A DNA stretch of 13,226 bases from an uncultured Bacilli bacterium. Lineage in GTDB: Bacteria; Bacillota_I; Bacilli_A; RF39; UBA660. The notes below the pieces were generated by a model that was not told the origin of the DNA, did not search any database, and saw nothing but the letters and a program-made list of their open reading frames with translations. How positions within the stretch are numbered: position 1 is the first letter of the stretch; every line of letters begins with the position of its first letter. The DNA lies in the NCBI GenBank assembly GCA_949746915.1, contig CATKEA010000120.1:1-13226 (forward strand), in the 5' to 3' direction. A program made the translations under genes and the position numbers. Positions 1-13,226 of the stretch are shown piece after piece.

Positions 1-10
1 GGATGATAAT

Positions 11-640
11 ATGGATCAAGAGATAATTTCAATGTTTAAAGAAAAAAATAGATCGATATTAATTCAGAATTTGAAGTTTGATACTGAGCGAAATATTGAT
101 TCTCTTTTAGAAACTTTAAAAAATATTGTTATGAATGATTTTGATATTGCTAGAAGGAATATTAGATTAATATTTGATGATTATGATTGCGAGATTTCTG
201 ATGATAAAATCTCTAATATTCTTTTTGATGCACAGAATGAAAGTTATAAAATTATTGAAGAAGTTGTATGTAGTAAAAAAGAATCTATTATTACAGATAT
301 AGACGAGTTGAGTTTCGAAGAGGAGTCCATGAATAATTATTATTCATTGATTGATGGAACTACAAAAGTTATTCAAGAAAAGTTAGGAATTAATATGTTT
401 GAAGGTATTATTTCTAATATGAATAAAGAATTTTTTAAATTTATTAGTAAAATAAAAGATGAAAATATTAAAGGTTTAGTTCAAAATAGAATTAGTGATT
501 ATATTAATATTCGTCTTTATAAAAAATTAGAAGATAAAATATTGTCTACTATTAGAATACGTGATAATAACTTGATAAATAAAGGAAAAGAAAGTTATGA
601 TAAGTATCAGGAAATAAGTAAAAAGACAACTCAAGTTTAG
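11..640 (+). CDS. Uncharacterised helical protein, possibly 5'-partial
   Basis: I do not recognise this 209-residue protein. It is strongly charged (many Lys, Glu, Asp, Asn, Ile), has no signal peptide or membrane segment, and reads as mostly alpha-helical, so a cytoplasmic protein is likely. The proposed ATG has a weak GGATGAT sequence just upstream. The frame is open to the window edge with no stop before the ATG, so the true start could lie outside the window. The gene ends in TAG and is followed within 10 bases by a rho-independent terminator, so it is the last gene of its transcript and is not in an operon with spoVT. No domain supports a function. Confidence 0.75.
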   Translation: MDQEIISMFKEKNRSILIQNLKFDTERNIDSLLETLKNIVMNDFDIARRNIRLIFDDYDCEISDDKISNILFDAQNESYKIIEEVVCSKKESIITDIDELSFEEESMNNYYSLIDGTTKVIQEKLGINMFEGIISNMNKEFFKFISKIKDENIKGLVQNRISDYINIRLYKKLEDKILSTIRIRDNNLINKGKESYDKYQEISKKTTQV

Positions 641-648
641 TTTTTTTT

Positions 649-697
649 GAATATAATGAGTAAATTACAATTGTAATTGAAAGTTATATTCTTTTTT
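649..697 (+). terminator. Rho-independent terminator after the first gene
   Basis: The outer arms GAATATAA (649-656) and TTATATTC (684-691) pair perfectly. Between them lies a perfect 16-base palindrome (663-678). The outer 3' arm runs straight into six T (692-697). The structure is AT-only in character but has the right order for a + strand terminator. Confidence 0.7.
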
Positions 698-726
698 GTA
701 TAAAAAATAGTTAAGTGATAACACTA
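697..726 (+). promoter_or_regulatory. Possible sporulation-type (sigma-G/F-like) promoter of spoVT
   Basis: TGTATA (697-702), a 17-base spacer and AACACTA (720-726) resemble the sigma-G -35 and -10 elements known for forespore genes; the -10 matches 5 of 7 positions of CATACTA. No good vegetative promoter was seen just upstream of spoVT. In B. subtilis spoVT is under sigma-G, which is why I looked. In DNA this AT-rich the match could be chance. Confidence 0.25.
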
Positions 727-750
727 TTAAATAGAAAGCGAGGTTTATTA

Positions 751-1266
751 ATGAAAGCAACAGGTGTAGTAAGACGAATTGATGATTTAGGAAGAATTGT
801 TATTCCAAAAGAATTAAGAAGGACTTTGAAAATTAGAGATGGAGAATTTTTAGAAATATTTGTAGAGTCTGATAGTGTTATTTTGAAAAAATATTCTTCT
901 TTTTCTGATATAAAAAATGTATGTGATAGAATTGTATCATCAGTAAATCTTGATGGCAAAACATTAGTTATTGTAGATAATGATAAGGTTATTTCTTCTA
1001 CTAATTCTTTGCTTATTGATAAAAAAATATCTGATTATTGTAGTAGTGTTTTAGAAAATAGAGAAGTTAAAATAGAAAATGATAACGAAACTATTGAATT
1101 ATTTGATTTGGAAGTATATAAGCAAAATTTTATTGTTTCTCCTATTATTAGTAATTCAGATTTAGTTGGTGGTGTAATTATTTTTTCTAAAGAGATGGAA
1201 GTTAATGATTTTGATAAGAATATTTGCGAGTTTTTAGTTAAATTTTTAATAAAAAATATTGAATAA
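751..1266 (+). CDS. spoVT: SpoVT-like AbrB-family transition/sporulation regulator
   Basis: This 171-residue DNA-binding regulator matches B. subtilis SpoVT (178 aa) along its whole length. Residues 1-50 form the AbrB/SpoVT swapped-hairpin domain, opening MKATGVVRRIDDLGRIVIPK and continuing ELRRTL..GE.LEIF. The rest is the GAF-like C-terminal domain, ending with the recognisable block SPIISNSDLVGGVIIFSK. SpoVT controls forespore (sigma-G) genes and germination traits in Bacillus. I chose the ATG at 751 because the family always starts MKATG and a good ribosome binding site, AAAGCGAGG (735-743), sits 7 bases upstream; an earlier in-frame ATG at 715 lacks both. It occupies the place held by abrB next to metS in B. 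subtilis. The metG promoter overlaps its stop codon. Confidence 0.93.
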   Translation: MKATGVVRRIDDLGRIVIPKELRRTLKIRDGEFLEIFVESDSVILKKYSSFSDIKNVCDRIVSSVNLDGKTLVIVDNDKVISSTNSLLIDKKISDYCSSVLENREVKIENDNETIELFDLEVYKQNFIVSPIISNSDLVGGVIIFSKEMEVNDFDKNICEFLVKFLIKNIE

Positions 1267-1287
1267 TGCTATGTAACATGTTATAAT
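1259..1287 (+). promoter_or_regulatory. Extended -10 promoter of the metG T-box transcript
   Basis: The -35 TTGAAT (1259-1264), a 17-base spacer and TATAAT (1282-1287) preceded by TGT (1279-1281) make a near-ideal extended -10 sigma-A promoter. Its -35 box covers the last codon and stop of spoVT. Transcription should start near 1294, just ahead of the T-box stem I. Confidence 0.75.
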
Positions 1288-1293
1288 TTTTGA

Positions 1294-1517
1294 TATATTT
1301 AAATGCACTGATGGAAAGAGTAAAGTTGATTTATTAAAGAGAGCATATGTGTGGTGTAAATATGTATAATGATACTTTATAAATGGTTCTATGAGCATAT
1401 TTATCGATATGTAGGTAAGTACGTTATTCGCGTTAAGAATTAGAGTTGTGCATTTTTTTGCAAAATAAGGTGGTACCGCGATATATTCGTCCTTAGTGAT
1501 GAATATATCTTTTTTTT
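1294..1517 (+). promoter_or_regulatory. T-box leader (tRNA-Met sensing riboswitch) of metG
   Basis: This leader senses uncharged tRNA and lets transcription continue into metG when charged tRNA-Met is scarce. The T-box core, AATAAGG then TGGTACCGCG, is at 1464-1480. The antiterminator is visible as TAAGG (1466-1470) pairing with CCTTA (1491-1495). It competes with the terminator stem at 1480-1509. Stem I begins in the purine-rich GATGGAAAGAGTA at about 1310-1322. The likely specifier codon is ATG at 1391-1393, followed by A as in other T-boxes. The specifier is an inference from the downstream gene and its position; the core motif and terminator are seen directly. Confidence 0.9.
1480..1517 (+). 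terminator. T-box conditional terminator
   Basis: GATATATTC (1480-1488) pairs perfectly with GAATATATC (1501-1509), followed by eight T (1510-1517). The loop holds the CCTTA half of the antiterminator, so the two structures exclude each other. Confidence 0.88.
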
Positions 1518-1535
1518 GATAAGGAGAGATTTAAA

Positions 1536-3095
1536 ATGGAAAAATATTATATTTCAACAGCTATAGCATATACTTCTGCAAAACCTCATATAGGGAATAC
1601 ATATGAAGTTATACTCGCTGATAGTATTGCCAGATATAAAAGGCTTAAAGGATTTGATGTATACTTTCAAACTGGTACTGATGAGCATGGTGAAAAGATT
1701 GCTCAAAAAGCAGAGCAAGCTGGTGTGACTCCACAAGAATATGTTGATGATATTCATGAAGAAATAAAAAATATTTGGGATCTAATGAATACTAGTTATG
1801 ACAAGTTTGTTAGAACTACTGATTTAAATCATGTTAAAGTTGTTCAAAAAATATTTAAAAAATTGTATGAAAAGGGAGATATTTATAAAGGAAAATATGA
1901 AGGTCTTTATTGTACTCCTTGTGAAGCTTTTATTACTGAAAGTCAATTGATTGATGGAAAGTGTCCTGATTGTGGGAGAGATGTTCAGTTAGCTAGTGAG
2001 GAAGCATATTTTTTTAAGTTATCTAAATATCAGAAGCAATTAGAGGATTATATTGAGTCACATCCAGATTTTATTCAACCTGAATCTAGGAAGAATGAAA
2101 TGATTAACAACTTTTTGAAACCTGGTCTTCAAGATTTATGTGTATCTAGAACATCATTTGATTGGGGAATTAAGGTTGATTTTGATCCAAAGCATGTTGT
2201 ATATGTATGGCTTGATGCACTTACTAATTACATTACTAATATTGGATATAGTGTTGATAATTCAACAGATGAATTTAAAAAATACTGGCCAGCTGATTTA
2301 CAGCTAGTTGGTAAGGATATTATTAGATTTCATACATTGTATTGGCCAATTTTTCTTATGGCATTAGATTTGCCATTACCAAAACAAGTATTTGGGCATC
2401 CGTGGTTGTTATTTGGAGCAAATAATGAAAAAATGAGTAAGTCACGTGGTAATGTTATTTATGCTGATGATTTGGCAAAAGATTTTGGAGTAGATGCCAT
2501 TCGTTATTATGTCTTACATGAAATTCCTTTTAGTAATGATGGAACGATTACTTATGATTTATTAATTGAAAGAATAAATAGTGATCTAGTTAATATTCTA
2601 GGAAATTTAGTCAATAGAACTATTTCTATGGTAAAAAAGTACTTTGATTCTTCAATAACGAATAAGGGTAAGTTTTCAGAATATGATCAGGATCTTATAA
2701 ATTATATTAATGAGTTAGATAGTAAAGTAGAAAAAAGAATGGATAAGCTGGAAATTGGTGCTTCTTTGGATGAAATATTTAATGTATTACGAAGAAGTAA
2801 TAAATATATTGATGAGACGATGCCATGGGTTTTAGCCAAGGATGAAGTAAAAAAAGCTGAGCTTGAATCTGTTTTATATAACTTGTTAGAAGCAATTCGT
2901 GTTTGTGGTATCTTATTAAAGCCATATTTACCAGAAACTTCTGATAGTATTTTAAAACAAATTAATAGTGATGATGTATCATTGGTATATAATGATGCTA
3001 ATGTATATTCTGTTTGTGATCCTTTTATATTATTTTATAGAATAGATAAGGATAAAAAGTTAAAAGAATTAGAAGAAAATAAAAAAGTTAGTTAA
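1536..3095 (+). CDS. metG: Methionyl-tRNA synthetase
   Basis: This class I aminoacyl-tRNA synthetase charges tRNA-Met for initiation and elongation in the cytosol. The HIGH-type motif PHIGN is at residues 17-21 and the KMSKS loop at 299-303. The zinc knuckle has Cys126, Cys129, Cys143 and Cys146 in the CxxC...CxxC pattern. The anticodon-binding helical domain follows from about 350. At 519 residues it is shorter than B. subtilis MetS (about 660 residues), and I see no C-terminal OB-fold tRNA-binding domain. The ATG has AAGGAGAG (1521-1528) 7 bases upstream, just after the T-box terminator. It has its own promoter, leader and terminator, so it forms a single-gene transcript upstream of tatD, as in the metS-yabD order of Bacillus. 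Confidence 0.97.
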   Translation: MEKYYISTAIAYTSAKPHIGNTYEVILADSIARYKRLKGFDVYFQTGTDEHGEKIAQKAEQAGVTPQEYVDDIHEEIKNIWDLMNTSYDKFVRTTDLNHVKVVQKIFKKLYEKGDIYKGKYEGLYCTPCEAFITESQLIDGKCPDCGRDVQLASEEAYFFKLSKYQKQLEDYIESHPDFIQPESRKNEMINNFLKPGLQDLCVSRTSFDWGIKVDFDPKHVVYVWLDALTNYITNIGYSVDNSTDEFKKYWPADLQLVGKDIIRFHTLYWPIFLMALDLPLPKQVFGHPWLLFGANNEKMSKSRGNVIYADDLAKDFGVDAIRYYVLHEIPFSNDGTITYDLLIERINSDLVNILGNLVNRTISMVKKYFDSSITNKGKFSEYDQDLINYINELDSKVEKRMDKLEIGASLDEIFNVLRRSNKYIDETMPWVLAKDEVKKAELESVLYNLLEAIRVCGILLKPYLPETSDSILKQINSDDVSLVYNDANVYSVCDPFILFYRIDKDKKLKELEENKKVS

Positions 3096-3104
3096 TATAT
3101 TTTT

Positions 3105-3143
3105 CTCTCTAAATTTAATAAAATTTAAGTTTAGAGAGTTTTT
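3105..3143 (+). terminator. Rho-independent terminator of metG
   Basis: CTCTCTAAA (3105-3113) pairs with TTTAGAGAG (3130-3138), followed by five T (3139-3143). It starts 9 bases after the metG stop codon. Confidence 0.88.
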
Positions 3144-3159
3144 GTTTGTAATTCGTTAA

Positions 3160-3188
3160 TTTACTACTTTTATTATAAATGATATAAT
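3160..3188 (+). promoter_or_regulatory. Extended -10 promoter of tatD and the 3D-domain gene
   Basis: TTTACT (3160-3165), a 17-base spacer and TATAAT (3183-3188) preceded by TGA (3180-3182). The transcript would begin near 3195, only about 10 bases before the tatD ATG at 3205, so the leader would be very short. The same TTTACT-17-TGn pattern recurs before the signal peptidase gene. Confidence 0.65.
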
Positions 3189-3204
3189 TAATATGGTGAT
3201 AATT

Positions 3205-3966
3205 ATGTTTATAGATACACATTTACATTTAAGTTATAAGTATGGTGAGACTCCTTCTAAATATATAATGGAATCTAATGCGAATAATGTTAAATTACTG
3301 ATTGTTAGTGCTTGTGATAAAGAATCAATGATTGAAAGCGATAGATTATTAGAAGAGTATCCTTCTTTGTATTATTCATTTGGATTTCATCCAGAATTTG
3401 CATCAAGTATTAGTAATGATGATATTAATCATCTTGTAAATAGTATAAGTAATAAAAGAGAAAAGATAGTTGCAATTGGAGAGATTGGGTTAGATTATCA
3501 CTATGGTAATGAAAATATCCAAGAGCAAAAAAATTTATTTGAACGACAATTACAAATAAGTGTAGATTTATCTTTACCAGTCGTTATTCATTCAAGGGAT
3601 GCTACCCAAGATACTTATGATATACTTAGTAAATATAATGTATTTGGTGTAATTCATTGTTTTAGTGGAAGCTTAGAAATGGCATTGAAATATATTGATT
3701 TAGGTTTTTATATAGGTATAGGTGGTGTTGTAACATTTAAAAATAGTAAACTTCAGGAGGTAGTAAAAAATATTCCGCTTTCTAAAATTGTTCTTGAAAC
3801 AGATAGTCCTTACTTAGCACCATCTCCTTACAGAGGAGAAGTCAATTCTTCTAAATATATTCCAATAATTGCTTCTAAAATTGCAGAATTAAAGGAGATT
3901 AGTATTGAAGAAGTGATGCATGTAACTACTTCTAATGCAATAGCTTTGTTTGACTTGAAAATATAA
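3205..3966 (+). CDS. tatD: TatD-family metal-dependent DNase
   Basis: This 253-residue TIM-barrel hydrolase is equivalent to B. subtilis YabD/DayD, a metal-dependent DNase acting in the cytoplasm. The metal ligands are all visible: HxH at residues 6-8 (DTHLHL), Glu93 in GEIGLDYHY, His129 in VVIHSRD, His151 in VIHCFSG and Asp200 in ETDSPYLAP. I start at ATG 3205 because GGTGAT (3195-3200) lies 4 bases upstream and the family begins with MFIDTH-type sequence right at the N-terminus; an ATG at 3193 would add four residues but has no binding site. It shares a transcript with the 3D-domain gene 38 bases downstream. The full set of ligands suggests an active enzyme. Confidence 0.94.
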   Translation: MFIDTHLHLSYKYGETPSKYIMESNANNVKLLIVSACDKESMIESDRLLEEYPSLYYSFGFHPEFASSISNDDINHLVNSISNKREKIVAIGEIGLDYHYGNENIQEQKNLFERQLQISVDLSLPVVIHSRDATQDTYDILSKYNVFGVIHCFSGSLEMALKYIDLGFYIGIGGVVTFKNSKLQEVVKNIPLSKIVLETDSPYLAPSPYRGEVNSSKYIPIIASKIAELKEISIEEVMHVTTSNAIALFDLKI

Positions 3967-4004
3967 TTGTGCTATATTGTTTATGTAATAATAGAGGTGT
4001 TAGT

Positions 4005-4589
4005 ATGAAGAAGTTAACTTCTATCTTAACGATTAGATTTTTTTATATTTGTTTTGTTTGTTTATTATTATTGATAATTGCAAATGGTAATAAGAGATAT
4101 GTTAATGTTGTTAATAATATTAATGGTGTGAAATCGTTAGAGGCTTCTAATATTGTTACAAAATATGTATTTAAAGAAGAAATAAAGCCAGTTTATGCTA
4201 AAAATATGTCTGAAGTTAAGTTATATGGTTCTAATGGACCTGTTGTTTTTTATGGGGAGATGACAGGATATGGACCTGATTGTGTTGGGTGTAGTGGTAC
4301 TGTTAGCTGTCCACCAAGTCCTAATATTAAGGAATCTGTTATGTTTGAAGATTCTGTGTATGGAAAAGTACATATTTTAGCAGCTGATTCTGCTATTCCT
4401 TGTGGAAGTATCATTCGTATTAAAAATGTTACATTTTCAGATAAGGCAATTTATGGAATAGTATTAGATAGAGGTGGCGTTGTTAAAGGAAATATTATTG
4501 ATTTTCTTGTTGAACGAGAGTCTTATGCAGTTTCAAATATTGGTAGACAAAAAAATGTTTCTTTTGAAATTATTAGATGGGGTTGGTAA
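4005..4589 (+). CDS. Exported 3D-domain (YabE-like) cell-wall protein
   Basis: This 194-residue protein has an N-terminal membrane segment (about residues 8-27) and a C-terminal 3D domain, a double-psi beta-barrel linked to peptidoglycan-cleaving lytic transglycosylases. The domain starts at MTGYGP (86-91). Its three aspartates are Asp128 (AADSAIPCGS), Asp155 (VLDRGG) and Asp166 (IIDFLV). It has cysteines at 93, 96 and 102 in a CVGCSG..SC cluster and at 133. Position after tatD makes it the counterpart of yabE, but it lacks the G5 and DUF348 domains of that long protein, so I do not give it the symbol. I choose ATG 4005 because GAGGTG (3994-3999) is 5 bases upstream; an in-frame ATG at 3969 lacks a binding site. 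It probably trims the wall during growth or sporulation. Confidence 0.85.
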   Translation: MKKLTSILTIRFFYICFVCLLLLIIANGNKRYVNVVNNINGVKSLEASNIVTKYVFKEEIKPVYAKNMSEVKLYGSNGPVVFYGEMTGYGPDCVGCSGTVSCPPSPNIKESVMFEDSVYGKVHILAADSAIPCGSIIRIKNVTFSDKAIYGIVLDRGGVVKGNIIDFLVERESYAVSNIGRQKNVSFEIIRWGW

Positions 4590-4601
4590 ATCCCTTTTTT
4601 T
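4579..4601 (+). terminator. Small terminator overlapping the 3D-domain gene stop
   Basis: GGGGTT (4579-4584) can pair with AATCCC (4589-4594, one G-T pair) around a GGTA loop, followed by seven T (4595-4601). The 5' arm is inside the coding region. It separates the housekeeping transcript from the TasA-like cluster. Confidence 0.6.
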
Positions 4602-4652
4602 ATTTTGATTTACTATATCGACAAATTTTAACAATATCTTTTTTGTAATTTG

Positions 4653-4680
4653 TTGCTTTTGTTTCCTTTATTATGATAAT
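4653..4680 (+). promoter_or_regulatory. Candidate promoter of the TasA-like cluster
   Basis: A promoter is expected here because a terminator precedes the cluster. Candidates are TTGCTT (4653-4658) with GATAAT (4675-4680, 16-base spacer), or TTTGTT (4649-4654) with TATGAT (4672-4677, 17-base spacer). Neither is strong, and neither has the TGn extension seen at the other promoters in the window. The weaker match may mean that an activator is used. Confidence 0.35.
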
Positions 4681-4703
4681 ATTAGTATAGGGAGGCTTGT
4701 ATC

Positions 4704-5405
4704 ATGAATAATAAGTCTAGTGAAAAATTTATTTTATCAGTATTAATTGTTTTAGTTTTAGTTGTATCTGTTGTAGGAATCAGTTTTGCTTTTTTTACTT
4801 ATGCTAAAGAAGGTAAAACAGAGAATACTATTCATTCAGGTACGTTAATATTAAATTTTAATGAACATACAAACGGTATAAGTTTGCAAAATGCTTTTCC
4901 AGTATCAGATGATGAAGCTTTGGCAAGTAGTGAACAAAATAGCTATTTTGACTTTTCTGTTGAATATACAATTGTTGGTCAAACATCAATAACTTATGAA
5001 ATTGATATTGTTGATATAACAGGTAATATTATGTCTGGCTATTCAAAATTAGATAGTAAGAATTTGAAACTTGCTTTGTATAATAATGATAGTAAATCTT
5101 TTATTGTTACACCTAGTTATTTTAGTGACATAGAAAAGAAGGCAGCTGGTAATAATAAAGATGGATATAAGCTACATGAGAAAGCTGTATCTACGACGGG
5201 AAATGATCAATATAGATTGTATATGTGGATTCCTGAATATGATGCAGTTGGTAATAAAGTTTCTATGTCAGATATTTTGAGTCCTACTGAAAAAAATAGT
5301 GATGGAACACCTGTTATTTTACAGAAGGGTATTAGTAATCAAACTTTTTCAGTAAAAATTAATATTCAGGCTTTAGATACTGCATCTTTAGTTACTAATG
5401 ATTAG
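4704..5405 (+). CDS. TasA/camelysin-like secreted protein 1 (SipW-type signal peptide)
   Basis: This 233-residue exported protein is the first of three related proteins. The N-terminus is a SipW-dependent signal peptide: a basic start, a hydrophobic core at about residues 10-27 ending GISFA|FFTYAKEGKTENT, then the hallmark HSGTLILNF. In TasA the matching ending is followed by AF and an ASGTLDL block, and cleavage is done by SipW. The mature part is beta-rich with no cysteine. It shares NGIxxxNAxP, YFDF and a YRLYMWI...FSVKINIQA ending with the two downstream proteins. TasA-family proteins form biofilm or surface fibres in Bacillus; fibre formation here is inferred. GGGAGG (4690-4695) lies 8 bases before the ATG. 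Confidence 0.85.
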   Translation: MNNKSSEKFILSVLIVLVLVVSVVGISFAFFTYAKEGKTENTIHSGTLILNFNEHTNGISLQNAFPVSDDEALASSEQNSYFDFSVEYTIVGQTSITYEIDIVDITGNIMSGYSKLDSKNLKLALYNNDSKSFIVTPSYFSDIEKKAAGNNKDGYKLHEKAVSTTGNDQYRLYMWIPEYDAVGNKVSMSDILSPTEKNSDGTPVILQKGISNQTFSVKINIQALDTASLVTND

Positions 5406-5415
5406 AGGTATGATT

Positions 5416-6255
5416 ATGATGGAAAATAGATATATGACTCAAAAGGCAATGTTTTTAGAAAGAGAAGAATCAAAGAAACACAGAATTTTAATAATTATAT
5501 TTTTGATTTTGTTGTTATTATTATTAGTTTTAATTATATTTGGTGTTAGAACTGGTGATTTAGTCGATAATAACAATCCTTATAATCCAGGTGGAAATTT
5601 AGATCCAACTCCTACTGTTAGTCCGACGACTTCACCATCACCATCAATTTCTCCAACTACTAGTCCAGATCCTATTGATCCAACACCAACAACGGATCCT
5701 ACAACAAGTCCAAAGCCTACAACTTCTCCTACGACTTCTCCAAAACCGACTGGTACAGATAAACCAGGTAGTGATATTGTAAAATTTTATTATAGTGATA
5801 CTACTGGTGTTGGGAATGGTATTTCTATTATAAATGCAGTTCCAACTGATGATTCTGTTGGAAAATTGTTGGTTGGTGATAGAAATTATTTTGATTTTTA
5901 TATTACATCGACAACTGTTAAAAGACCTATTTCTTATAATATAATTGCAACAAAAAGTGATGGAAGTACTTTAGATGAGAATAGTGTAAAGGTGTATTTA
6001 ACTAAAGTAAGTGGAATGAATGAAATTGAAATAGCTAATTGTTATAATGGTAATAAGGTAAAAACTTATGGTGAGTATGGTAATGTCGATTATGGTTTTG
6101 TAGCTGGAAAATCTTTATATAAAGAAACAATAGCAGCAAATACAAAAAATTATAAAAGTTCATATCGTCTTAGAATTTGGGTTAATGATACTGCTATTAA
6201 TTGGGAGAATAAAGACTTCTCATTAAAAATTAATGTTTATGCTGTTGAAGAATAG
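5416..6255 (+). CDS. Membrane-anchored, stalked TasA-like protein 2
   Basis: This 279-residue protein has a charged cytoplasmic N-terminus of about 23 residues and one transmembrane helix (24-44). A Pro/Thr/Ser-rich stalk (about 63-119) follows, built from repeated TTSP, SPKPT and DPTPT units. The C-terminal domain (from about 121) matches the neighbouring TasA-like proteins: NGISIINAVP, NYFDFYI, ISYNIIATKSDGST, YRLRIWV and FSLKINVY. The hydrophobic segment lacks the SFA/FF or SLA/VF junction and the TGTL block of a SipW substrate, so it is probably uncleaved and stays in the membrane. I infer an anchor or base for fibres made by proteins 1 and 3, comparable in role to B. subtilis TapA but not in sequence. 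ATG 5416 is preceded by AGAGG (5404-5408), 7 bases away; the earlier ATG at 5398 overlaps the previous gene. Confidence 0.82.
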   Translation: MMENRYMTQKAMFLEREESKKHRILIIIFLILLLLLLVLIIFGVRTGDLVDNNNPYNPGGNLDPTPTVSPTTSPSPSISPTTSPDPIDPTPTTDPTTSPKPTTSPTTSPKPTGTDKPGSDIVKFYYSDTTGVGNGISIINAVPTDDSVGKLLVGDRNYFDFYITSTTVKRPISYNIIATKSDGSTLDENSVKVYLTKVSGMNEIEIANCYNGNKVKTYGEYGNVDYGFVAGKSLYKETIAANTKNYKSSYRLRIWVNDTAINWENKDFSLKINVYAVEE

Positions 6256-6266
6256 TGGTGATAGAA

Positions 6267-6908
6267 ATGAAGACAGAAAATAATAAAAAATTATCAAGAA
6301 GAAAAGAATTATTATTATTAATATTGCTAGTTTTTTCTTTAGTAGTTGTCGTTTTTGGAGCTTCTTTAGCGGTTTTTAGCTATTTAGGAAAAGGACAAAC
6401 TTATAATTCTTTAAAGACAGGAACTTTAAATTTTGCTTATTCTGATGCTGTTGGGGGATCAAATGGTATATATATTGAGAATGCAGTTCCAATAAGTGAT
6501 GAAGAAGGAAAAAAACTTTTTGGAAATAGAGAGTACTTTGATTTTGTTATAACTGCATCTACTACCTCTTCACCACTTAGTTATGAGGTTATCGCTACCA
6601 AAAATAGCGTTAGTACACTTAATGATAGTGATATAAAGATGTATTTAACTATCATAAATGGGAGTAATGAAGTAGAAACTCCTATTACTTCTAATAATGG
6701 GATAATTAGTTTATATAGCGATTTGCATGATACTAATAGTGTAGACTTTTCTGGTAAGTCTATATATTTCGAAACGATAGATCCTTTAGTTGGATCTTAT
6801 AGTAAAAGGTTTAGATTAAGAATGTGGATTGATGACAGAGAGTATGATGAAGATTATTTACGTGGAAAAACTTTTTCAGTACGTGTTAATGTAACTGCAA
6901 CTAATTAG
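6267..6908 (+). CDS. TasA/camelysin-like secreted protein 3 (SipW-type signal peptide)
   Basis: This 213-residue exported protein carries a SipW-type signal peptide: basic MKTENNKKLSRRK, a hydrophobic core, then GASLA|VFSYLGKGQTYNS and the block LKTGTLNF. The mature domain is closer to protein 2 than to protein 1: NGIYIENAVPISDEEGKKL, EYFDFVIT, LSYEVIATKN, a DIKMYLT strand and the ending FRLRMWIDD...FSVRVNVTA. There is no cysteine. GGTGAT (6257-6262) lies 4 bases before ATG 6267, so I prefer this start to the in-frame GTG at 6255, which overlaps the preceding stop codon. It is the last gene of the three-gene unit and is followed by a small hairpin. It is probably a second fibre or surface subunit; no function has been shown. 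Confidence 0.84.
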   Translation: MKTENNKKLSRRKELLLLILLVFSLVVVVFGASLAVFSYLGKGQTYNSLKTGTLNFAYSDAVGGSNGIYIENAVPISDEEGKKLFGNREYFDFVITASTTSSPLSYEVIATKNSVSTLNDSDIKMYLTIINGSNEVETPITSNNGIISLYSDLHDTNSVDFSGKSIYFETIDPLVGSYSKRFRLRMWIDDREYDEDYLRGKTFSVRVNVTATN

Positions 6909-6914
6909 TAAAGT

Positions 6915-6938
6915 ACCTGTAATATTGCAGGTCTTTTT
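6915..6938 (+). terminator. Weak terminator/attenuator between the TasA-like genes and sipW
   Basis: ACCTG (6915-6919) pairs with CAGGT (6928-6932), plus one T-G pair, followed by C and five T. The 5-6 bp stem is short, so read-through into the signal peptidase gene is plausible. Confidence 0.5.
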
Positions 6939-6947
6939 ATTTATAAA

Positions 6948-6976
6948 TTTACTTACGAGAAAAAATGTGTTATGAT
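6948..6976 (+). promoter_or_regulatory. Extended -10 promoter of the sipW operon
   Basis: TTTACT (6948-6953), a 17-base spacer and TATGAT (6971-6976) preceded by TGT (6968-6970). It has the same -35 and spacing as the tatD promoter. It allows the signal peptidase unit to be expressed apart from its presumed substrates. Confidence 0.65.
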
Positions 6977-7011
6977 ATTTTTAGATATTATAGAAGGATA
7001 GGTGATTTTAT

Positions 7012-7617
7012 TTGAAAAAAAGTATTTTGAGATCTTTAAATATTTTATCAACTATCTTTATGCATTCTATTGTTGTATTAACTGTTCTTATTGTTTTGGC
7101 AGTTGTTGTTTATTTTGTTGATCAAGGTATTGGTAAGAAAAATGGTTTAACAAGGGCCCCTTTATTTGGAGCTTATGTAATCATAACTGGTAGTATGGAA
7201 CCCAATGTTAAAGTATTTGATGCTGTACTTACAATAAGAGAAAGTAAAGAAGATATAAAGGTTAACGATATAATTACATTTGTTTCTCAAAATCCACATC
7301 ATAATGGGGCTACAATTACTCATCGTGTTGTAGGTATTGTTAAATTAGATGATGGTAAGATTAGTTATCGTACAAAAGGTGATAATAATCCAATACCTGA
7401 TTCATCTTTGGTTAATTATGAAAATATTGTTGGAAAAGTAATTTTAAAAATACCTAAAATTGGGTATTTGCAGTCTTTGATTTCTAATAATAAGTTGTTA
7501 GTATTAATTGTTATTCCATGTATATTTATTATTTTCTCTGATTTGTTTGGTTATCTAAAACGAAAATTGGATGAAGATACTGATAATACAAATTCTACTG
7601 AAGGTAAGGTGGCTTAG
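7012..7617 (+). CDS. sipW: SipW-type (ER-type) signal peptidase I
   Basis: This 201-residue membrane serine protease removes signal peptides at the outer face of the membrane. It belongs to the S26B (SipW/ER-type) branch. The nucleophile is Ser61 in TGSMEP. The general base is His104 in THRVV, where other bacterial type I enzymes have Lys. Acidic residues Asp124 (KGDNN) and Asp130 (IPDSS) follow. Membrane helices lie at about 18-37 and 160-179. In B. subtilis SipW processes TasA and TapA, so proteins 1 and 3 upstream are the obvious substrates. The start is a TTG: GGTGAT (7001-7006) lies 5 bases before it and it gives the typical MKKS N-terminus. The gene abuts the next one with no gap. Confidence 0.92.
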   Translation: MKKSILRSLNILSTIFMHSIVVLTVLIVLAVVVYFVDQGIGKKNGLTRAPLFGAYVIITGSMEPNVKVFDAVLTIRESKEDIKVNDIITFVSQNPHHNGATITHRVVGIVKLDDGKISYRTKGDNNPIPDSSLVNYENIVGKVILKIPKIGYLQSLISNNKLLVLIVIPCIFIIFSDLFGYLKRKLDEDTDNTNSTEGKVA

Positions 7618-8313
7618 ATGAAAACTTTTATAAAGCAATATCTATCTATTATAAATTACGCAATTATTGGGATTGTTTTTGGCTATGCCTCTTTTTATTT
7701 ATTTTTAAATCTTTATCATTATCAAGATATTAGAAGAACATATGATATTAATGGTACAGTCGCAGATGAGATTTTGGTAAAGAATGTTGATTCTAGATTA
7801 AAAGTTATTGAGGATAATATTAATTCATTTGATGTTAACAAATATCGAGGAAGTATTGATGCTTCTAAACTTAATCTTGTTTCGGCTAATTTAAAGGTTT
7901 GTCTTAATTATTATAATAATGATGTTTATAAGGAACTAAAGAAAAAATCAAGTATTAATATTATAGATGTATATCGCTTAAGAGAGGCATATGAAAATGA
8001 GGTACTTAATGGTTGTATTGTAAAAAATTTGTATTGGGTTTCAGATATAGAAAAAACGGACTTTGATGCATTAAAGCAAAATTCTTTTTTATTAAAGACC
8101 TATTTTAAGGATATTTTAGCTACTACCAGTTATTTAAAAAAGGATCTTTTAAATAATACAGCTTATAGTTTTTCAACAGAAATTTTTAGTAAGGAAATTA
8201 AAAATATTTCAAAAGATGGATTTTATGAGGTTATGAATTCCTATAATAGTAGTTTAAATATAGTTGAATACATTTCAAATTGGTTAAAACAGGAAGCAGA
8301 GGCTGGTGTTTAG
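7618..8313 (+). CDS. Unknown single-pass membrane protein linked to sipW
   Basis: I do not recognise this 231-residue protein. It has a short N-terminal tail and one hydrophobic helix (about 11-33). The rest is a hydrophilic, probably helical domain predicted outside the membrane. That domain has two cysteines, Cys95 and Cys133, which could form a disulfide. Its ATG follows the sipW stop codon directly, and AAGGTGG (7606-7612) lies inside the end of sipW, so the two are translationally coupled. The next gene starts one base after its stop. Constant linkage to a signal peptidase and to TasA-like proteins suggests a role in secretion, assembly or chaperoning of the surface subunits, but nothing in its sequence proves it. 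Confidence 0.78.
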   Translation: MKTFIKQYLSIINYAIIGIVFGYASFYLFLNLYHYQDIRRTYDINGTVADEILVKNVDSRLKVIEDNINSFDVNKYRGSIDASKLNLVSANLKVCLNYYNNDVYKELKKKSSINIIDVYRLREAYENEVLNGCIVKNLYWVSDIEKTDFDALKQNSFLLKTYFKDILATTSYLKKDLLNNTAYSFSTEIFSKEIKNISKDGFYEVMNSYNSSLNIVEYISNWLKQEAEAGV

Positions 8314-8314
8314 A

Positions 8315-8755
8315 ATGAAGAAAATTATTAATGTTTCTCTTATATTTATTAAGTTTTTATTTCTTTTGACAAGTTTTGTTCTTACATTTAATATTGTTCT
8401 TAGAATGTATGAGCGGTTAGGGAAAAATTATATCGAGTCAATACCTGTTTTTATACCTTATATAATATTATTTTTTCTTTTTTCAATTAATTTTATTTTA
8501 AGGCAAAAGAGAGTTAATAATAGTATGTTTTATAATATTACTTGTTGTTTAGTATTTGCTATGTTAATTTTTTGTGGTTATCGTGCTATGACTGATAAAT
8601 ACATGTTACTTTATATAAGACTTGGTGATTATCATATAAATTTCAATTATTATGCTGATATTATTGCACCTATGAAGGTTATGTTGTATCTTTTAAGTGT
8701 TTCTAATATTTTATTGATGTTTATTGGTAAAAATGATATTAAGGAAAATGAATAA
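8315..8755 (+). CDS. Unknown four-helix membrane protein linked to sipW
   Basis: This 146-residue protein is not one I recognise. It is very hydrophobic, with four probable membrane helices at about 6-28, 42-62, 72-91 and 118-138. A polar stretch around 92-116, containing YIRLGDYHINFNYY, lies between the last two helices. Translation probably starts at ATG 8315, one base after the previous stop and 6 bases after GGTG (8305-8308); the in-frame GTG at 8306 overlaps the upstream gene without a better site. It is the last gene of the sipW unit and is followed by a terminator. An accessory role with the signal peptidase or in fibre export is inferred from position only. Confidence 0.75.
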   Translation: MKKIINVSLIFIKFLFLLTSFVLTFNIVLRMYERLGKNYIESIPVFIPYIILFFLFSINFILRQKRVNNSMFYNITCCLVFAMLIFCGYRAMTDKYMLLYIRLGDYHINFNYYADIIAPMKVMLYLLSVSNILLMFIGKNDIKENE

Positions 8756-8759
8756 ATAT

Positions 8760-8789
8760 AGATGTTAAGATTGTTATCTGCATCTTTTT
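8760..8789 (+). terminator. Terminator of the sipW operon
   Basis: AGATG (8760-8764) pairs with CATCT (8781-8785), and inside it AGAT (8768-8771) pairs with ATCT (8776-8779) around TGTT. Five T close it (8785-8789). It starts 4 bases after the last stop codon. Confidence 0.65.
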
Positions 8790-8813
8790 ATTTGGTATTA
8801 TATGTGATATAAT
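8785..8813 (+). promoter_or_regulatory. Extended -10 promoter of rsmA
   Basis: TATAAT (8808-8813) preceded by TGA (8805-8807) is a strong extended -10. The -35 at 17 bases is TTTTTA (8785-8790), which is poor and overlaps the preceding terminator T-run. The start of transcription would be near 8820. Confidence 0.55.
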
Positions 8814-8836
8814 CTACTAGAAATGGGAGTGGTATT

Positions 8837-9631
8837 GTGGATTTAAAAGATTTTAAGTTTAAAAAAAATTATGGTCAAAATTTTTTGAGAGAAAAATCTA
8901 TTGTAGAAAAGATTGCTGATAGTGCTGAAATTGCCGAAAATTCTTTAGTAATAGAAATAGGGCCTGGTTCTGGCATGCTTACTATTCCATTGGTAAAAAG
9001 AGCTAAGCAGGTTCTTTGCTATGAAATTGATGTAACTTTAAAAGATATACTTAATGATAATTTATCTAATTATGATAATGTAGATGTTATATATGATGAT
9101 TTTCTTAATCGTAATGTTCGTGATGATATAGAGAAATATAGTTATGATAATTTATATGTTGTTAGTAATCTTCCTTATTATATTACTACTCCGATTATTA
9201 CCAAAATAATAGACGATAAGCTTGATGTTTCTAAAATAGTTGTAATGGTTCAAAAAGAAGTTGGAGATAGATTTGCTGCTAAAGTTGGTAGTAAGGAATA
9301 TAATTCATTAACTGTTTTTTTAAATTATTATTTTAATATAAAGAAATTGTTTGTGGTTAGTAGAAATTGTTTTGTTCCTAAACCTAATGTTGATAGTATT
9401 GTTGTTCAACTTAGTAGGAAGGAAGAGGTTATTAGTGTTAATAATTTGGATGTTTTCTTTAAATTAGTTAGGGATAGTTTTACTTATAAAAGAAAAACTT
9501 TACGAAATAATTTAAAAAATTATAATCTTGATAAAATTAATGTGGTTTTGAGGAAATATAATTTAGATTTAAATGTTAGAGCAGAAGATTTAAGTCTTGA
9601 TATGTTTGTTGATATAAGTAATAATCTTTGA
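8837..9631 (+). CDS. rsmA: 16S rRNA (adenine1518-N6/adenine1519-N6) dimethyltransferase RsmA (KsgA)
   Basis: RsmA uses S-adenosylmethionine to dimethylate two adjacent adenines in the 3' hairpin of 16S rRNA, a late step in small-subunit assembly. The family signature YGQNFL is at residues 12-17. The SAM-binding motif I EIGPGSG is at 40-46. The catalytic NLPYY is at 111-115, followed by ITTPIITKII. The C-terminal small domain contains the conserved FTYKRKTLRNNL. The length, 264 residues, is slightly below the usual 270-290. The start is GTG 8837, with GGGAG (8825-8829) 7 bases upstream. In B. subtilis rnmV lies directly upstream of this gene; here the sipW unit does. It ends in TGA, which confirms use of the standard code. 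Confidence 0.96.
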   Translation: MDLKDFKFKKNYGQNFLREKSIVEKIADSAEIAENSLVIEIGPGSGMLTIPLVKRAKQVLCYEIDVTLKDILNDNLSNYDNVDVIYDDFLNRNVRDDIEKYSYDNLYVVSNLPYYITTPIITKIIDDKLDVSKIVVMVQKEVGDRFAAKVGSKEYNSLTVFLNYYFNIKKLFVVSRNCFVPKPNVDSIVVQLSRKEEVISVNNLDVFFKLVRDSFTYKRKTLRNNLKNYNLDKINVVLRKYNLDLNVRAEDLSLDMFVDISNNL

Positions 9632-9638
9632 TTTACTA

Positions 9639-9663
9639 ATATTATTTTTTGTAATATCTTTTT
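9639..9663 (+). terminator. Weak AT hairpin after rsmA
   Basis: ATATTA (9639-9644) pairs with TAATAT (9652-9657), followed by C and five T (9659-9663). With only six A-T pairs, termination would be partial at best. Confidence 0.35.
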
Positions 9664-9669
9664 AATTTG

Positions 9670-9701
9670 AAACATAGTATGTAGAGGGTGATACTATGTT
9701 T
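9670..9701 (+). promoter_or_regulatory. Hairpin sequestering the yabG start codon
   Basis: AAACATAGTAT (9670-9680) and ATACTATGTTT (9691-9701) are perfect 11-base inverted repeats. The 10-base loop holds most of the ribosome binding site, AGAGGGTG (9683-9690). The start ATG (9696-9698) is in the 3' arm. The arm runs into further T residues, so the element could act on translation, on transcription termination, or as a protein site in DNA. The pairing is seen directly; the regulatory role is inferred. Confidence 0.6.
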
Positions 9702-9980
9702 TTTAATGAGGGAGATATTGTTAGTAGAAATTCGTATTCTAATGATACTCTGTTTAAAATTATTAGAATTGATGGAGATTTAGCATATCTTAAAGGTTTA
9801 GATGTTCGACTTTATGCGGATAGTATGATCAGTGATTTAAAAAGAGAAGAGGAACCAAGACGTGATGATAACAGTTTTTTAGAGAGAATCTCTGAATCTT
9901 TTATTTTGGATCGCAGTGAATATTTTTATTTACCAGGTAAAGTTTTGCATATAGATACTGAGTGTAGATTAAGTAAGTAG
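9696..9980 (+). pseudogene. yabG: YabG N-terminal fragment (truncated sporulation protease)
   Basis: The 94-residue product matches only the start of YabG, the coat-processing sporulation protease of about 290 residues in B. subtilis (peptidase family U57). Recognisable parts are GDIVSRNSY near the N-terminus, YLKGLDVRLYADSMISDL in the middle, and the join to the catalytic region, EYFYLPGKVLHID. After that the frame reads TECRLSK and stops. The 70 bases beyond show no YabG-like sequence in any frame, so the protease domain is missing rather than shifted. It sits directly after rsmA, exactly the Bacillus order. The ribosome binding site AGAGGGTGAT (9683-9692) is strong but folded in a hairpin. 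It may be a dead remnant, or a retained N-terminal domain with some residual use. Confidence 0.72.
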
Positions 9981-10052
9981 AAAATATATCACCCTTAAGC
10001 CCTTATAAATAAAGAGAAAATGAAATTTTTATAGTTACTTTTTATTGTATGT

Positions 10053-10088
10053 AAACACTAAATTTTTTGAAAATTTGGTGTTTTTTTT
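10053..10088 (+). terminator. Strong terminator after the yabG fragment
   Basis: AAACACTAAATTTT (10053-10066) pairs with AAAATTTGGTGTTT (10070-10083, one G-T pair) around a TTG loop. The T-run covers 10081-10088. This is the strongest terminator in the window and closes the conserved gene block. Confidence 0.87.
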
Positions 10089-10117
10089 GAAGATTCTGCA
10101 CAGGTGATTAGGGGGTG

Positions 10118-10539
10118 ATGCTCTTTAAGTAACTAATTTTATCTATAGTAGATTATTTAATTTATATTTATATACAGTAATTGTTCTAAGTCTATTATCC
10201 ATTTTTGTAAGTGAACTAGTACAAAAAGTTTAAATAAAGGAAAAATCAAAATTTGATAAGTTAAATGAGATTAAAAAGTACTAGGAAGCTTGGCATTATT
10301 TAGCTGTAGAAGAAGAGCAACACAAGGAAATTAACACTGGGGAGCTGTAGGTATTGTAACAAATAATAAAACAATAATTGTACATCCATCTAGTAATGGA
10401 ATAGGTAGGTGAAGTAAGTGTAATTGGGATGGTACTACATAATAAAAGTAAAAATAAGTAGTGATAGTGTAGTATTTGTTTAGAAAATGATTCTAATTAA
10501 TGGAATATGTGCATTGAGCAACTTAAATATATCAAATAA
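10118..10539 (+). pseudogene. Degraded gene for a membrane or secreted protein
   Basis: Coding-like pieces follow each other in shifted frames. The first reads NLYLYTVIVLSLLSIFVSEL, a membrane or signal segment (about 10160-10230). The same frame continues across stops at 10231 and 10282 as EKSKFDKLNEIKKY and EAWHYLAVEEEQHKEINTG (to 10347). A shift then gives WGAVGIVTNNKTIIVHPSSN and GIGR (10338-10409). Another gives IKVKISSDSVVFV (10442-10480), and a last piece ENDSN, stop, WNMCIEQLKYIK (10483-10536). GGGGGTG and an ATG (10111-10120) stand in front but run to a stop after four codons. The pieces look like one ancestral gene with several frameshifts. The GIVTNNKTIIVHPSS part vaguely recalls NlpC/P60-type proteins, but I cannot assign a family. 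Confidence 0.42.
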
Positions 10540-10714
10540 TTAAAAAATGTTAATCGATTATTTTTGATGATGGTCATTTAGTTTAGAATATTTTTCTCAA
10601 CAATAAATTATATCATTTAAGTAGTTATTTTGTTTATTAGTATGTAATTTTACATTATAGTATTAACTATTTGTAAATTAATTTGCTTACAATATAGATT
10701 TTTTATTGGTATTT

Positions 10715-10723
10715 TGTTATAAT
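10715..10723 (+). promoter_or_regulatory. Extended -10 promoter before the CxxC mini-ORF
   Basis: TGT followed by TATAAT (10718-10723) is a good extended -10. No convincing -35 lies 16-18 bases upstream. Initiation would be near 10730. Confidence 0.4.
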
Positions 10724-10745
10724 GAAAATAAGAAAGAGTTAATTT

Positions 10746-10850
10746 ATGAAAACTAGGATATGTAGATATTGTAATGAGAAAATAGGAAAATATATATTGA
10801 TGGTATGGATTTGTGTTAATAAGAGTAGAAAATTATTGTGTATGAACTAA
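10746..10850 (+). CDS. Possible 34-residue CxxC peptide or remnant
   Basis: An ATG with AAGAAAGAG (10730-10738) 7 bases upstream opens a 34-codon frame ending in TAA. It begins MKTRICRYCNEKIGKYILMV and carries two further cysteines (Cys23 and Cys32). The CxxC near the start followed by separate Cys residues looks like a small zinc-ribbon whose second pair has drifted. An extended -10 element precedes it. It may be a real small protein or the start of a decayed HNH/zinc-finger gene; the decayed surroundings favour the latter. Confidence 0.3.
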   Translation: MKTRICRYCNEKIGKYILMVWICVNKSRKLLCMN

Positions 10851-10879
10851 TGGTTCATTTAATTCGATTACTAATGAAT

Positions 10880-10938
10880 TGAAAAAACTATAGTTTTTGT
10901 AGTAACATAATTGCATAATACATATTGTAGTTTTTTCA
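10880..10938. repeat. Inverted repeat upstream of the 11024 gene
   Basis: TGAAAAAACTA (10880-10890) is the exact reverse complement of TAGTTTTTTCA (10928-10938). The left copy also lies in a 16-base palindrome, AAAAACTATAGTTTTT (10883-10898), giving two alternative hairpins. It could be a regulatory structure or an old terminator; no T-run follows the larger hairpin. Confidence 0.4.
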
Positions 10939-11023
10939 GTATTAATTTGGTATCAACATTATTTATAAGTGTGTATGGCTTATTATAATATTTTATATAT
11001 ATGACTTAAATAGGAGAATAAAT

Positions 11024-11872
11024 ATGAAAAGAATAGTAAAAGTAAAAAAAATAATTATGCTAGTATTAGTATTTATGTTGGTGTCTAATATGAATGTTAG
11101 AGCAGAAAATTTGGATTTAAGTAATATAAAATTATTAGATGAGTCTTCCGAGTTAAGTAAAGAATATGCTGCTAAGAATAATAGATTATTATATGAAGAA
11201 GATTCTTTTGTAGAAACTAGTATTCATTATGTTAATAATGAAGTAGTTGAAGTGAAGGAAAGAAATATTACTGAATCAGAATATGATAACTCTATAATAG
11301 AAACAAGGACCAAATGTGATTTTGCTAATGCTGATGATTGTTGGGAAACAGCATCTAAGAGAGTAACAATAGCTGCATGGAAGGTTGGAAGTTCTAGTTG
11401 CCCGAGTTATAGAATTCAAATAGATAATGTATGGAAAAAAATACCTAATGTTAAATCTTTTGATGTAATTGCACTAAGATATAATGATAAATTTTCTGCA
11501 CATGGAGCAATAGCACATCAGACATATAAAATTGATGGTGTTGAGCATGATATTACATACAGTCCAGATGGTACCAATACAAAAAGATTTTCTAATGGGA
11601 TAGGTGTATCAATGAATATTGTTGACGCAGTTACATCTGATTTACATCTAAGTCTATTGGTAGAAGGTACAGCTTCAAGTGGAGTAATCGGATTTGGTGG
11701 GACATATCAACATGCTACTAGTAATGTGACTTTGACTCAATCTCAAAATTATACTATTTCTACATCTGGTTTAGGTGGAATACTTGCATTTAATTCATCA
11801 GTTATTGGTAAGTATGATGGTATGCAAGGCGTTGGTGGTTTATTTCATAGTACTGGATGTATTGTTAGATGA
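11024..11872 (+). CDS. Secreted protein of unknown function
   Basis: This 282-residue protein has a classical signal peptide, MKRIVKVKK then a hydrophobic core, with likely cleavage VRA|EN at residues 27/28. After a charged linker (about 28-95) comes a beta-rich domain with TIAAWKVGSSSCPSYRIQ, a WKKIPNVKSFDVIAL strand pair, the block NTKRFSNGIGVSMN, and the ending YQHATSNVTLTQSQNYTIS, GLGGIL and YDGMQGV. I recall similar YQHA...YDGMQGV endings in unnamed secreted proteins of Bacillota, but no function. Several cysteines occur (two near 98-107, one in SSSCPSY and one in the final HSTGCIVR), so disulfides are possible. AGGAGA (11012-11017) is 6 bases before the ATG. The gene lies in the accessory region beyond the yabG fragment and ends in TGA. 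Confidence 0.82.
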   Translation: MKRIVKVKKIIMLVLVFMLVSNMNVRAENLDLSNIKLLDESSELSKEYAAKNNRLLYEEDSFVETSIHYVNNEVVEVKERNITESEYDNSIIETRTKCDFANADDCWETASKRVTIAAWKVGSSSCPSYRIQIDNVWKKIPNVKSFDVIALRYNDKFSAHGAIAHQTYKIDGVEHDITYSPDGTNTKRFSNGIGVSMNIVDAVTSDLHLSLLVEGTASSGVIGFGGTYQHATSNVTLTQSQNYTISTSGLGGILAFNSSVIGKYDGMQGVGGLFHSTGCIVR

Positions 11873-11966
11873 CATTTTAAGAAGACTTGTATAATGTATT
11901 TTAGTTATTAGTCCTTTATATATAAAGAGTAAAACCATTGGGTTAGTTTTAGGAGATAAAATAAAG

Positions 11967-12857
11967 ATGAATAATATAAAATTTAAGTTAAAAACCAATA
12001 TTTGTAAAATGCATAATATAGGCCAACGAAGTGCAAAAAAGTCATTAAATTTAATCCCTGCTTTATTCGTTGCTGTTTTCCTGTTTATGACTGGTATTTC
12101 GATGGTTTATGCTAAAACCAGCAGTAAAATTAAGTCAAATACTAATTTATTTTCGTTTAATGAATTAGAAACTATGAAAAACAATGTATCCTATGTATAT
12201 GAGCCAAAGGAATTATGGCAAAATAAAGATAGGTATGGTGTTTCTGAAGACTGTATAGGAGTTTATAGTATAAATATTAATGGTATATTGAGAATAAGTA
12301 AAATTAATCGTAATTTAGAGATTTATTCTATCAATGAATTAGAAAGTAAAATCGGAATAAAATTACTAAAGGGAAAAAATATCGAATATAAATACTTTAA
12401 TGTTTTTAATACCTCTATGCAAAATGAAAAATACAACTATTTTATCAATAATCCAGCAATTATTTCTATAACAATGAGTAACTATGAAAATTTCGATTGT
12501 AATAACTTTATTTATTTATTTAATAAAAAGACATCACAGAAAAAAGTTGACGAGTATAATAAATGTATAAAAGATGCAAATAGTAATCAGCCAAATAGAA
12601 GGCTAAATGTAAAAGTAATGTTTGCAACACAATACGCATCTAAATATCAATTAGAAGATTTTGTACTTTATTTGGCTAATTTTCAAAATGAAGAGGTAGA
12701 GATATATAATTCGAAAAAATTAAATAATAAGATATTTGTAACATCTTTAGATGAATATATATTTGTTTATGACAATATTGCATATATTATAGATAATAGT
12801 AATAATGATTATTCAAAGGAAGAGTTATTAAATGAGATTGAATTACTAGAATATTAG
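11967..12857 (+). CDS. Secreted or lipid-facing protein of unknown function
   Basis: This 296-residue protein starts with an unusually long basic N-region (about 25 residues), then a hydrophobic core (about 28-46) and a likely signal peptidase site VYA|K at 49/50. The mature part is rich in Asn, Lys, Tyr and Ile and has three cysteines (in SEDCIG, FDCNNF and YNKCIK). No motif identifies a family. AGGAGAT (11951-11957) lies 9 bases before ATG 11967; an internal ATG at 12009 would shorten the N-region but has no binding site. It follows the 11024 gene by 94 bases in the same direction, with no terminator between, so co-transcription is plausible. A weak TATAAT (11890-11895) in the gap may add a promoter. 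A terminator follows it. Confidence 0.8.
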   Translation: MNNIKFKLKTNICKMHNIGQRSAKKSLNLIPALFVAVFLFMTGISMVYAKTSSKIKSNTNLFSFNELETMKNNVSYVYEPKELWQNKDRYGVSEDCIGVYSININGILRISKINRNLEIYSINELESKIGIKLLKGKNIEYKYFNVFNTSMQNEKYNYFINNPAIISITMSNYENFDCNNFIYLFNKKTSQKKVDEYNKCIKDANSNQPNRRLNVKVMFATQYASKYQLEDFVLYLANFQNEEVEIYNSKKLNNKIFVTSLDEYIFVYDNIAYIIDNSNNDYSKEELLNEIELLEY

Positions 12858-12900
12858 CCGTGAAATATCACAAAAGTGTAAATAAACTGTATAAAATATT

Positions 12901-12934
12901 GAGAGTACTAAAATGCAGATAGTACTCTTTTTTT
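12901..12934 (+). terminator. Rho-independent terminator after the 11967 gene
   Basis: AGAGTACT (12902-12909) pairs perfectly with AGTACTCT (12921-12928), extended by one G-T pair, and runs into seven T (12928-12934). Confidence 0.85.
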
Positions 12935-12943
12935 ATGTGTTTT

Positions 12944-12977
12944 AAACAGTTTAAATTGGAGAAATTTTAAATTGTTT
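12944..12977 (+). repeat. 12-bp hairpin directly upstream of a GGAGG site
   Basis: AAACAGTTTAAA (12944-12955) pairs with TTTAAATTGTTT (12966-12977), with one G-T pair and a 10-base loop. The 3' arm ends exactly one base before GGAGG (12978-12982), so the structure could influence access to that site. It could equally be a chance AT fold. Confidence 0.4.
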
Positions 12978-12988
12978 GGAGGAAAATA

Positions 12989-13198
12989 ATGGTAATAATA
13001 CCAAAGAGAAACAAAAGCAAGTATAATCTTTATAAATTATATAAGATATAATTATCAAAACAGGTGTATTTAATGTTTGTTCAATTTGAGTTAGATAGAT
13101 ATAGGAAGCACATCAATAAATATGCTTAGCGATTAATACTTGGTTATAAAATTAGATGGCAACTAATTTGTAATAATAATTGAATTTGGTATAAATAA
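12989..13198 (+). pseudogene. Short basic peptide or stop-interrupted gene remnant
   Basis: ATG 12989 has a strong GGAGG (12978-12982) 6 bases upstream and encodes MVIIPKRNKSKYNLYKLYKI before TAA at 13049. The same frame continues without shift as LSKQVYLMFVQFELDRYRKH and INKYA to TAG at 13127, then RLILGYKIRWQLICNNN to TGA at 13181. A second ATG at 13073 with AGGTG upstream starts the middle piece. The amino-acid texture stays protein-like across the stops, which suggests a decayed basic protein; a genuine 20-residue peptide is the alternative. No family is recognised. Confidence 0.3.
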
Positions 13199-13226
13199 TA
13201 AATTTAACTTATATTAATTTTAGAAA

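Follow-up and report, generated by a model that had tools for sequence, protein, structure and literature searches.

A SipW-like signal peptidase locus and a genome-wide set of TasA-like domain proteins in an uncultured Bacilli bacterium

Introduction

A signal peptidase gene that lies beside genes for its likely substrates raises the question of whether such a locus is a complete system or part of a larger one. We addressed this question for a stretch of 13,226 nucleotides from an uncultured Bacilli bacterium (RF39; UBA660; assembly GCA_949746915.1, contig CATKEA010000120.1, positions 1..13,226; hereafter the window), in which six genes in the same direction, p1-p2-p3-sipW-mem5-mem6, are flanked by a 3D-domain gene on one side and rsmA on the other. 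An earlier reading made from the letters alone (the sequence-only reading) had described three TasA-like proteins, a dedicated SipW peptidase and two membrane proteins, and had taken them for a self-contained fiber or biofilm-matrix system. In TasA fibers, a donor strand of one subunit completes the fold of its neighbor. Substrates of the SipW type are marked by a hydrophobic signal that ends in S/T-x-A and is followed by an aromatic residue, a motif also present in the Bacillus proteins that we examined.

All six open reading frames (ORFs) were confirmed, but the system does not appear to be self-contained: the same genome carries 35 further ORFs with the TasA-like domain outside the window, and one SipW-type gene was found. 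Because of these 35, and because eight related genomes with a bare sipW locus have TasA-like genes elsewhere, the unit of function is more likely to be the genome-wide repertoire than the six genes. The earlier reading thus had the right parts and nearly the right names, and drew its boundary too tightly.

Results and Discussion

Homology among the three TasA-like proteins is well above the level of chance (p3 against p2, E 2e-34; p3 against p1, E 7e-14; database, the ORFs of 86 loci and the window), in agreement with their proposed origin by duplication. Of the motifs said to be shared, NGIxxxNAxP and YFDF are common to all three, whereas YRLxxW holds in p1 (YRLYMW) and p2 (YRLRIW) and is replaced by FRLRMW in p3. 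The two secreted subunits carry the SipW-type junction and (S/T)GTL block ascribed to them. In p1 (4704..5405, + strand, 233 aa), a hydrophobic signal ends in GISFA|FFTY, with the cut placed by us after residue 29, and HSGTL follows; in p3 (6255..6908, +, 217 aa), it ends in GASLA|VFSY and KTGTL follows. By analogy with TasA, the segments comprising a putative donor strand and the GTL block would be p1 residues 30-48 (4791..4847, +) and p3 residues 40-58 (6372..6428, +). The remaining protein, p2 (5398..6255, +), is indeed a stalked anchor, with a membrane segment, then a Pro/Ser/Thr stalk, then the same domain as p1 and p3; sequence comparison found in it neither an S-x-A junction nor a counterpart of the p1 and p3 residues from the junction to GTL. 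By our reading, p2 probably starts internally at 5416 or 5419, and p3 at the ATG at 6267.

A profile of the domain matched 42 places in the bacterium's genome at E<=1e-3 and 46 at E<=1. The 35 ORFs outside the window were counted after the matches had been fetched and read, two (L149:3984 and L165:2070) being dropped because the match was judged to be a membrane segment only; domain counts may be low, since only 51 candidates were scored in this genome and in several others. Of the 35, 32 form a class whose junction is similar to GTSYA|LWQ...TTGC, two are akin to p1 and p3, and one is divergent. An S/T-x-A junction is present in p1, p3 and 33 of the 34 outside ORFs that could be read at this point, and is absent from p2 and from one outside ORF (L162). 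The 23 outside ORFs with both ends are 388-1045 aa long, except for one of 149 aa, and the TasA-like domain is thus mostly an N-terminal module in this genome. Scanning 23 repertoire members for C-terminal modules gave matches over curated cut-offs to DUF285 leucine-rich repeats (8 members), GH3 (1) and DUF6273 (1), and none in the other 13. The DUF285 module (PF03382) is that of BspA-like leucine-rich surface proteins, but here it is joined to an N-terminal TasA-like domain that bears a junction of the SipW type. In the 1045-aa ORF (L147, contig 98 of this genome), the beginning of the TasA-like domain precedes, in the same frame, the first ATG/GTG/TTG codon.

The C-terminal ends of these ORFs bear on how the proteins might stay on the cell. 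Contig ends cut 11 of the 35 ORFs at the 3' end, and none of the 24 complete there has an LPxTG motif or, by a simple hydropathy rule, a second membrane segment. If SipW cut them at the junction, they would therefore be lost unless bound to something. Sortase anchoring was considered and rejected for the repertoire, given this lack of LPxTG, although the genome has four sortase-family matches over cut-off (contigs 253, 109, 102 and 175), one of which shares its contig with the GH3-bearing member (L156). In the 19 repertoire members complete at both ends that were used for this measure, the 20 residues past the junction are the best-conserved part of the domain (3.23 bits; the rest has 2.58 and the signal 2.21), as would be expected if a donor strand had to fit a shared groove. 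The conservation may instead reflect recent duplication or an effect of recognition by the signal peptidase.

We put forward, as somewhat more probable than not in our estimation, a locus that serves as a hub for SipW processing and anchoring, in which p2 is an anchored acceptor and TasA-like subunits as well as multidomain proteins are attached to it by donor-strand complementation. What is observed is gene content and homology; SipW cleavage is suggested by motif and gene content, and donor-strand assembly by analogy with TasA. The single SipW-like peptidase would cut after S-x-A and free the mature N-terminus, whose first 20 or so residues, as far as the (S/T)G(T/C) block, would act as a donor strand completing the beta-fold of a neighboring subunit. 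The proteins p1 and p3 would be plain subunits, and p2 would be the base, able to accept a donor strand and unable to give one, because it keeps the membrane segment, the stalk and the domain and has no donor segment. The other 35 domain ORFs would be further substrates, held on the surface through the domain, either on the fiber or on p2-type bases, and mem5 and mem6 may be membrane accessory factors of SipW or of assembly. More tentatively, this may amount to a sortase-independent display by plug and socket, in which SipW exposes a donor-strand plug on dozens of surface proteins and p2 is the plugless socket anchor. It is equally speculative that one peptidase and one anchor let a bacterium with a reduced genome exchange its whole surface coat. 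If these proposals are right, TasA-type strand exchange would be a general means of attaching and exchanging multidomain surface proteins, beyond the biofilm fiber and at large scale in some uncultured Bacilli, and the surface retention of many proteins without sortase motifs would be accounted for.

The loci of relatives bear on where the boundary lies. A scan of species genomes with sipW gave 161 relatives; the 80 best loci among them were retained and 54 (L004-L057) were examined, with L001-L003 left out as duplicates; many of these records are metagenome assemblies, several of them from animal gut according to their titles. TasA-like genes lie upstream of sipW in 35 of the 54 (36 by script, which included L005, a reversed locus with mem5, mem6 and a TasA-like gene downstream of sipW), and between 0 and 4 TasA-like genes adjoin sipW. 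Recurrence of all six genes together, which the sequence-only reading had proposed to look for, was found in one piece in L007 and split over two contigs of one bin in L008 and L009, but most sipW loci have no mem5 and mem6 (present in 11 of 54 including L005; 10 by script). Three loci (L014, L037 and L047, the sipW of the last recognized by eye) have three TasA-like genes, sipW, one more TasA-like gene, mem5 and mem6. The observation that the sequence-only reading had named as refuting it, a peptidase without these substrates next to it in related genomes, was made in part: most loci have TasA-like neighbors, but eight at the usual chromosomal slot between tatD and rsmA (L010, L011, L012, L015, L016, L017, L018 and L021) have sipW without recognized TasA-like or mem5/mem6 neighbors. 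Outside the slot, L052-L056 likewise have no TasA-like gene beside sipW at the threshold used. Between 1 and 20 domain matches were found in each of nine genomes, those of the eight bare slot loci and that of L013. In two of these genomes (those of L010 and L012), a tandem of four TasA-like ORFs lies at another locus (L111 and L112), and several of these ORFs have a clear SipW-type junction.

These data also bear on the view that the locus is a dedicated TasA-type fiber operon, whose SipW serves only p1 and p3, polymerizing on p2, while the other domain proteins stay uncut and anchored in the membrane. The contiguity of p1, p2, p3 and sipW in the window, L007 and L009 would fit such an operon, and uncut N-terminal segments are a common protein anchor. 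We nevertheless consider it unlikely, as it would leave unexplained why 33 of 34 junctions are retained outside the window, why the segment past the junction is the best-conserved part of the domain in 19 outside ORFs, and why the eight slot loci keep sipW with candidate substrates elsewhere in the genome.

At 14 loci, neither of the two TasA-like genes upstream of sipW has a junction by our rule, and the 10 genomes of this kind that were searched have 2 to 5 domain matches in all. A large repertoire is thus a feature of some members of the window's wider family and not of every carrier of sipW. Among 37 family genomes (36 relatives and the window's own), at least four domain matches occur in 16 of 21 with a strong sipW (E<1e-50) as compared to 1 of 16 without, 13 of the latter having weaker SipW-like matches; the seven strong-mem5 genomes exceed the other 14 strong-sipW genomes in domain matches (Mann-Whitney p 0.006). 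Both tests used counts entered by hand and are weakened by a profile built near sipW, a threshold set post hoc and shared ancestry.

Membership of the camelysin family, which had been suggested, was not borne out by sequence. Neither p1, p2, p3 nor any other protein of the genome matched the PF12389 (Peptidase_M73) profile, whereas a B. subtilis control was positive and both Bacillus TasA/camelysin-like proteins scanned matched it (E 1.6e-85 and 2.7e-50); similar length and a SipW-type signal and junction are what the window's proteins have in common with this family. Full profile-profile alignment covered 58 columns only, which run from the signal through the GTL block into the strand that follows it (probability 10%, E 0.003). 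The mature domains scored 12.9 against ten Bacillus TasA/camelysin-like proteins, which is not above controls (ten column-shuffled profiles, 8.5 to 13.9; reversed, 17.4; two of three unrelated families higher, at 13.2 and 16.3). Searching the sequences of solved structures with the p1-p3 profile gave no TasA chain among 8 sequences at E<=10, and the best rows, 6nav (E 0.004) and 8tib (E 0.007), were judged to be chance, as they are two similar sequences whose alignment starts at the hydrophobic N-terminus. TasA (fiber structure 8aur) ranked first in both structural rankings of the p3 model, in which residues 46-53 and 56-63 form strands, with an only moderate match and other beta-sandwich proteins next. 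Other top Foldseek matches of p3 were the Pyrobaculum bundling pili (7ueg, which we take to be AbpA) and FimG of type 1 pili; both follow the donor-strand principle, but the TM-scores are low, the organisms are different, and Fim assembly is of the chaperone-usher type.

With a structural match of this grade, and no sequence link of the mature part to TasA, the domain of p1-p3 might be a non-polymerizing adhesin or other beta-sandwich, and SipW might merely release or mature surface and secreted proteins. This seems improbable to us, because TasA comes first in both rankings, the junction and GTL block stand in register, if weakly (probability 10%), with the Bacillus TasA/camelysin-like proteins, and proteins set free by SipW would not remain with the cell unless they were attached to p2 or something similar.

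The peptidase gene (7012..7617, +, TTG start) encodes the ER-type signal peptidase I that had been named. The product exceeds the cut-off of TIGR02228 (88.4 bits, cut-off 51.85; endoplasmic reticulum (ER) type, S26B) and falls below that of the Bacillus SipW equivalog NF046067 (85.9 bits, cut-off 190), and by these scores is SipW-like and not the Bacillus equivalog. Ser61 (7192-7194) and His104 (7321-7323), the residues pointed out earlier, and Asp124 are invariant in all 29 aligned peptidases (the window's and 28 chosen from 49 listed). The 87%-complete assembly, in which one SipW-type gene was counted, yielded no LepB-type signal peptidase; because LepB occurs in a genus sister, the idea that SipW is the sole type I signal peptidase was dropped. 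As in the TapA-SipW-TasA system of B. subtilis, an ER-type signal peptidase adjoins its likely substrates, these share an S/T-x-A junction, an aromatic residue at most two positions after it and a GTL block, and the TasA fiber subunit is the best structural match of the subunit model. Unlike in that system, and as had been remarked of its tapA-sipW-tasA order, the genes here run p1-p2-p3-(terminator)-sipW-mem5-mem6; one member is anchored in the membrane and has a stalk, there are two additional membrane proteins and 35 further domain ORFs, and the window's proteins have no TasA-family sequence match.

The two membrane proteins are as nameless as they were said to be, with no Pfam or NCBIfam family at E<=1. 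The product of mem5 (7618..8313, +) has one N-terminal membrane segment, a predicted helical ectodomain and, in 12 sequences, two invariant cysteines (95 and 133); that of mem6 (8306..8755, +) has approximately four membrane segments, with P51, N77, C81, R93 and D97 invariant in 12 sequences. A model of mem5 (pLDDT 79, based on 12 sequences) shows a bundle of helices, and its structural matches were unspecific, comprising rhodopsins, vinculin tail and designed bundles; the mem5 profile matched only two sequences of solved structures, with E near 1. Searches of 196 genomes used the mem5 profile, with mem6 seen as its neighbor, and gave 18 matches, 14 of them strong (E<1e-20). The four weak ones (G029, G051, G197 and G097) were left out of the count; the best of them, G029, adjoins neither sipW nor mem6. 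Next to mem5 stands mem6 in 14 of 14 strong matches, and sipW lies upstream in all 13 whose contig extends far enough, in 10 of them across one small gene of 161-211 aa, TasA-like or unassigned.

This linkage argues against the six genes being a chance neighborhood at a conserved chromosomal slot, with mem5 and mem6 belonging to another pathway. Of the 54 loci, 35 have tatD within range upstream of sipW as well as rsmA downstream of it, so that linkage may be inherited by position, and most sipW loci have no mem5 and mem6; however, mem5 and mem6 stand by sipW in every assessable strong match, though the slot often holds sipW and neither of these two genes, and we regard chance as very improbable. 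We infer that mem5 and mem6 are accessory to SipW or to assembly at the membrane. This, if true, would assign these conserved but unnamed membrane proteins a role next to SipW that can be tested.

Two terminator-like hairpins on the + strand delimit p1-p2-p3, one at 4579..4594, after the 3D-domain gene and at the upstream border of the locus, and one at 6915..6932, between p3 and sipW-mem5-mem6. Terminator-like sites in 4500-9000 number three, as compared to 0.8 +/- 1.0 in shuffles, the third being on the - strand within p2. The names rsmA, tatD and metG are our reading of translations. Elsewhere in the window, a T-box leader (RF00230, 104.2 bits) at 1299-1497 lies directly 5' of the methionyl-tRNA synthetase gene, so named by the same reading. 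Downstream of rsmA, 9696-9980 encodes a 94-aa protein whose match to YabG (PF05582, a sporulation protease) is limited to the first ~60 residues, and 9981-11023 is approximately 1 kb without any ORF of at least 60 aa on either strand. Two ORFs with a hydrophobic segment and without a confident family match follow (11024-11872 and 11967-12857), the first of which has a relative in L021 (E 1e-12).

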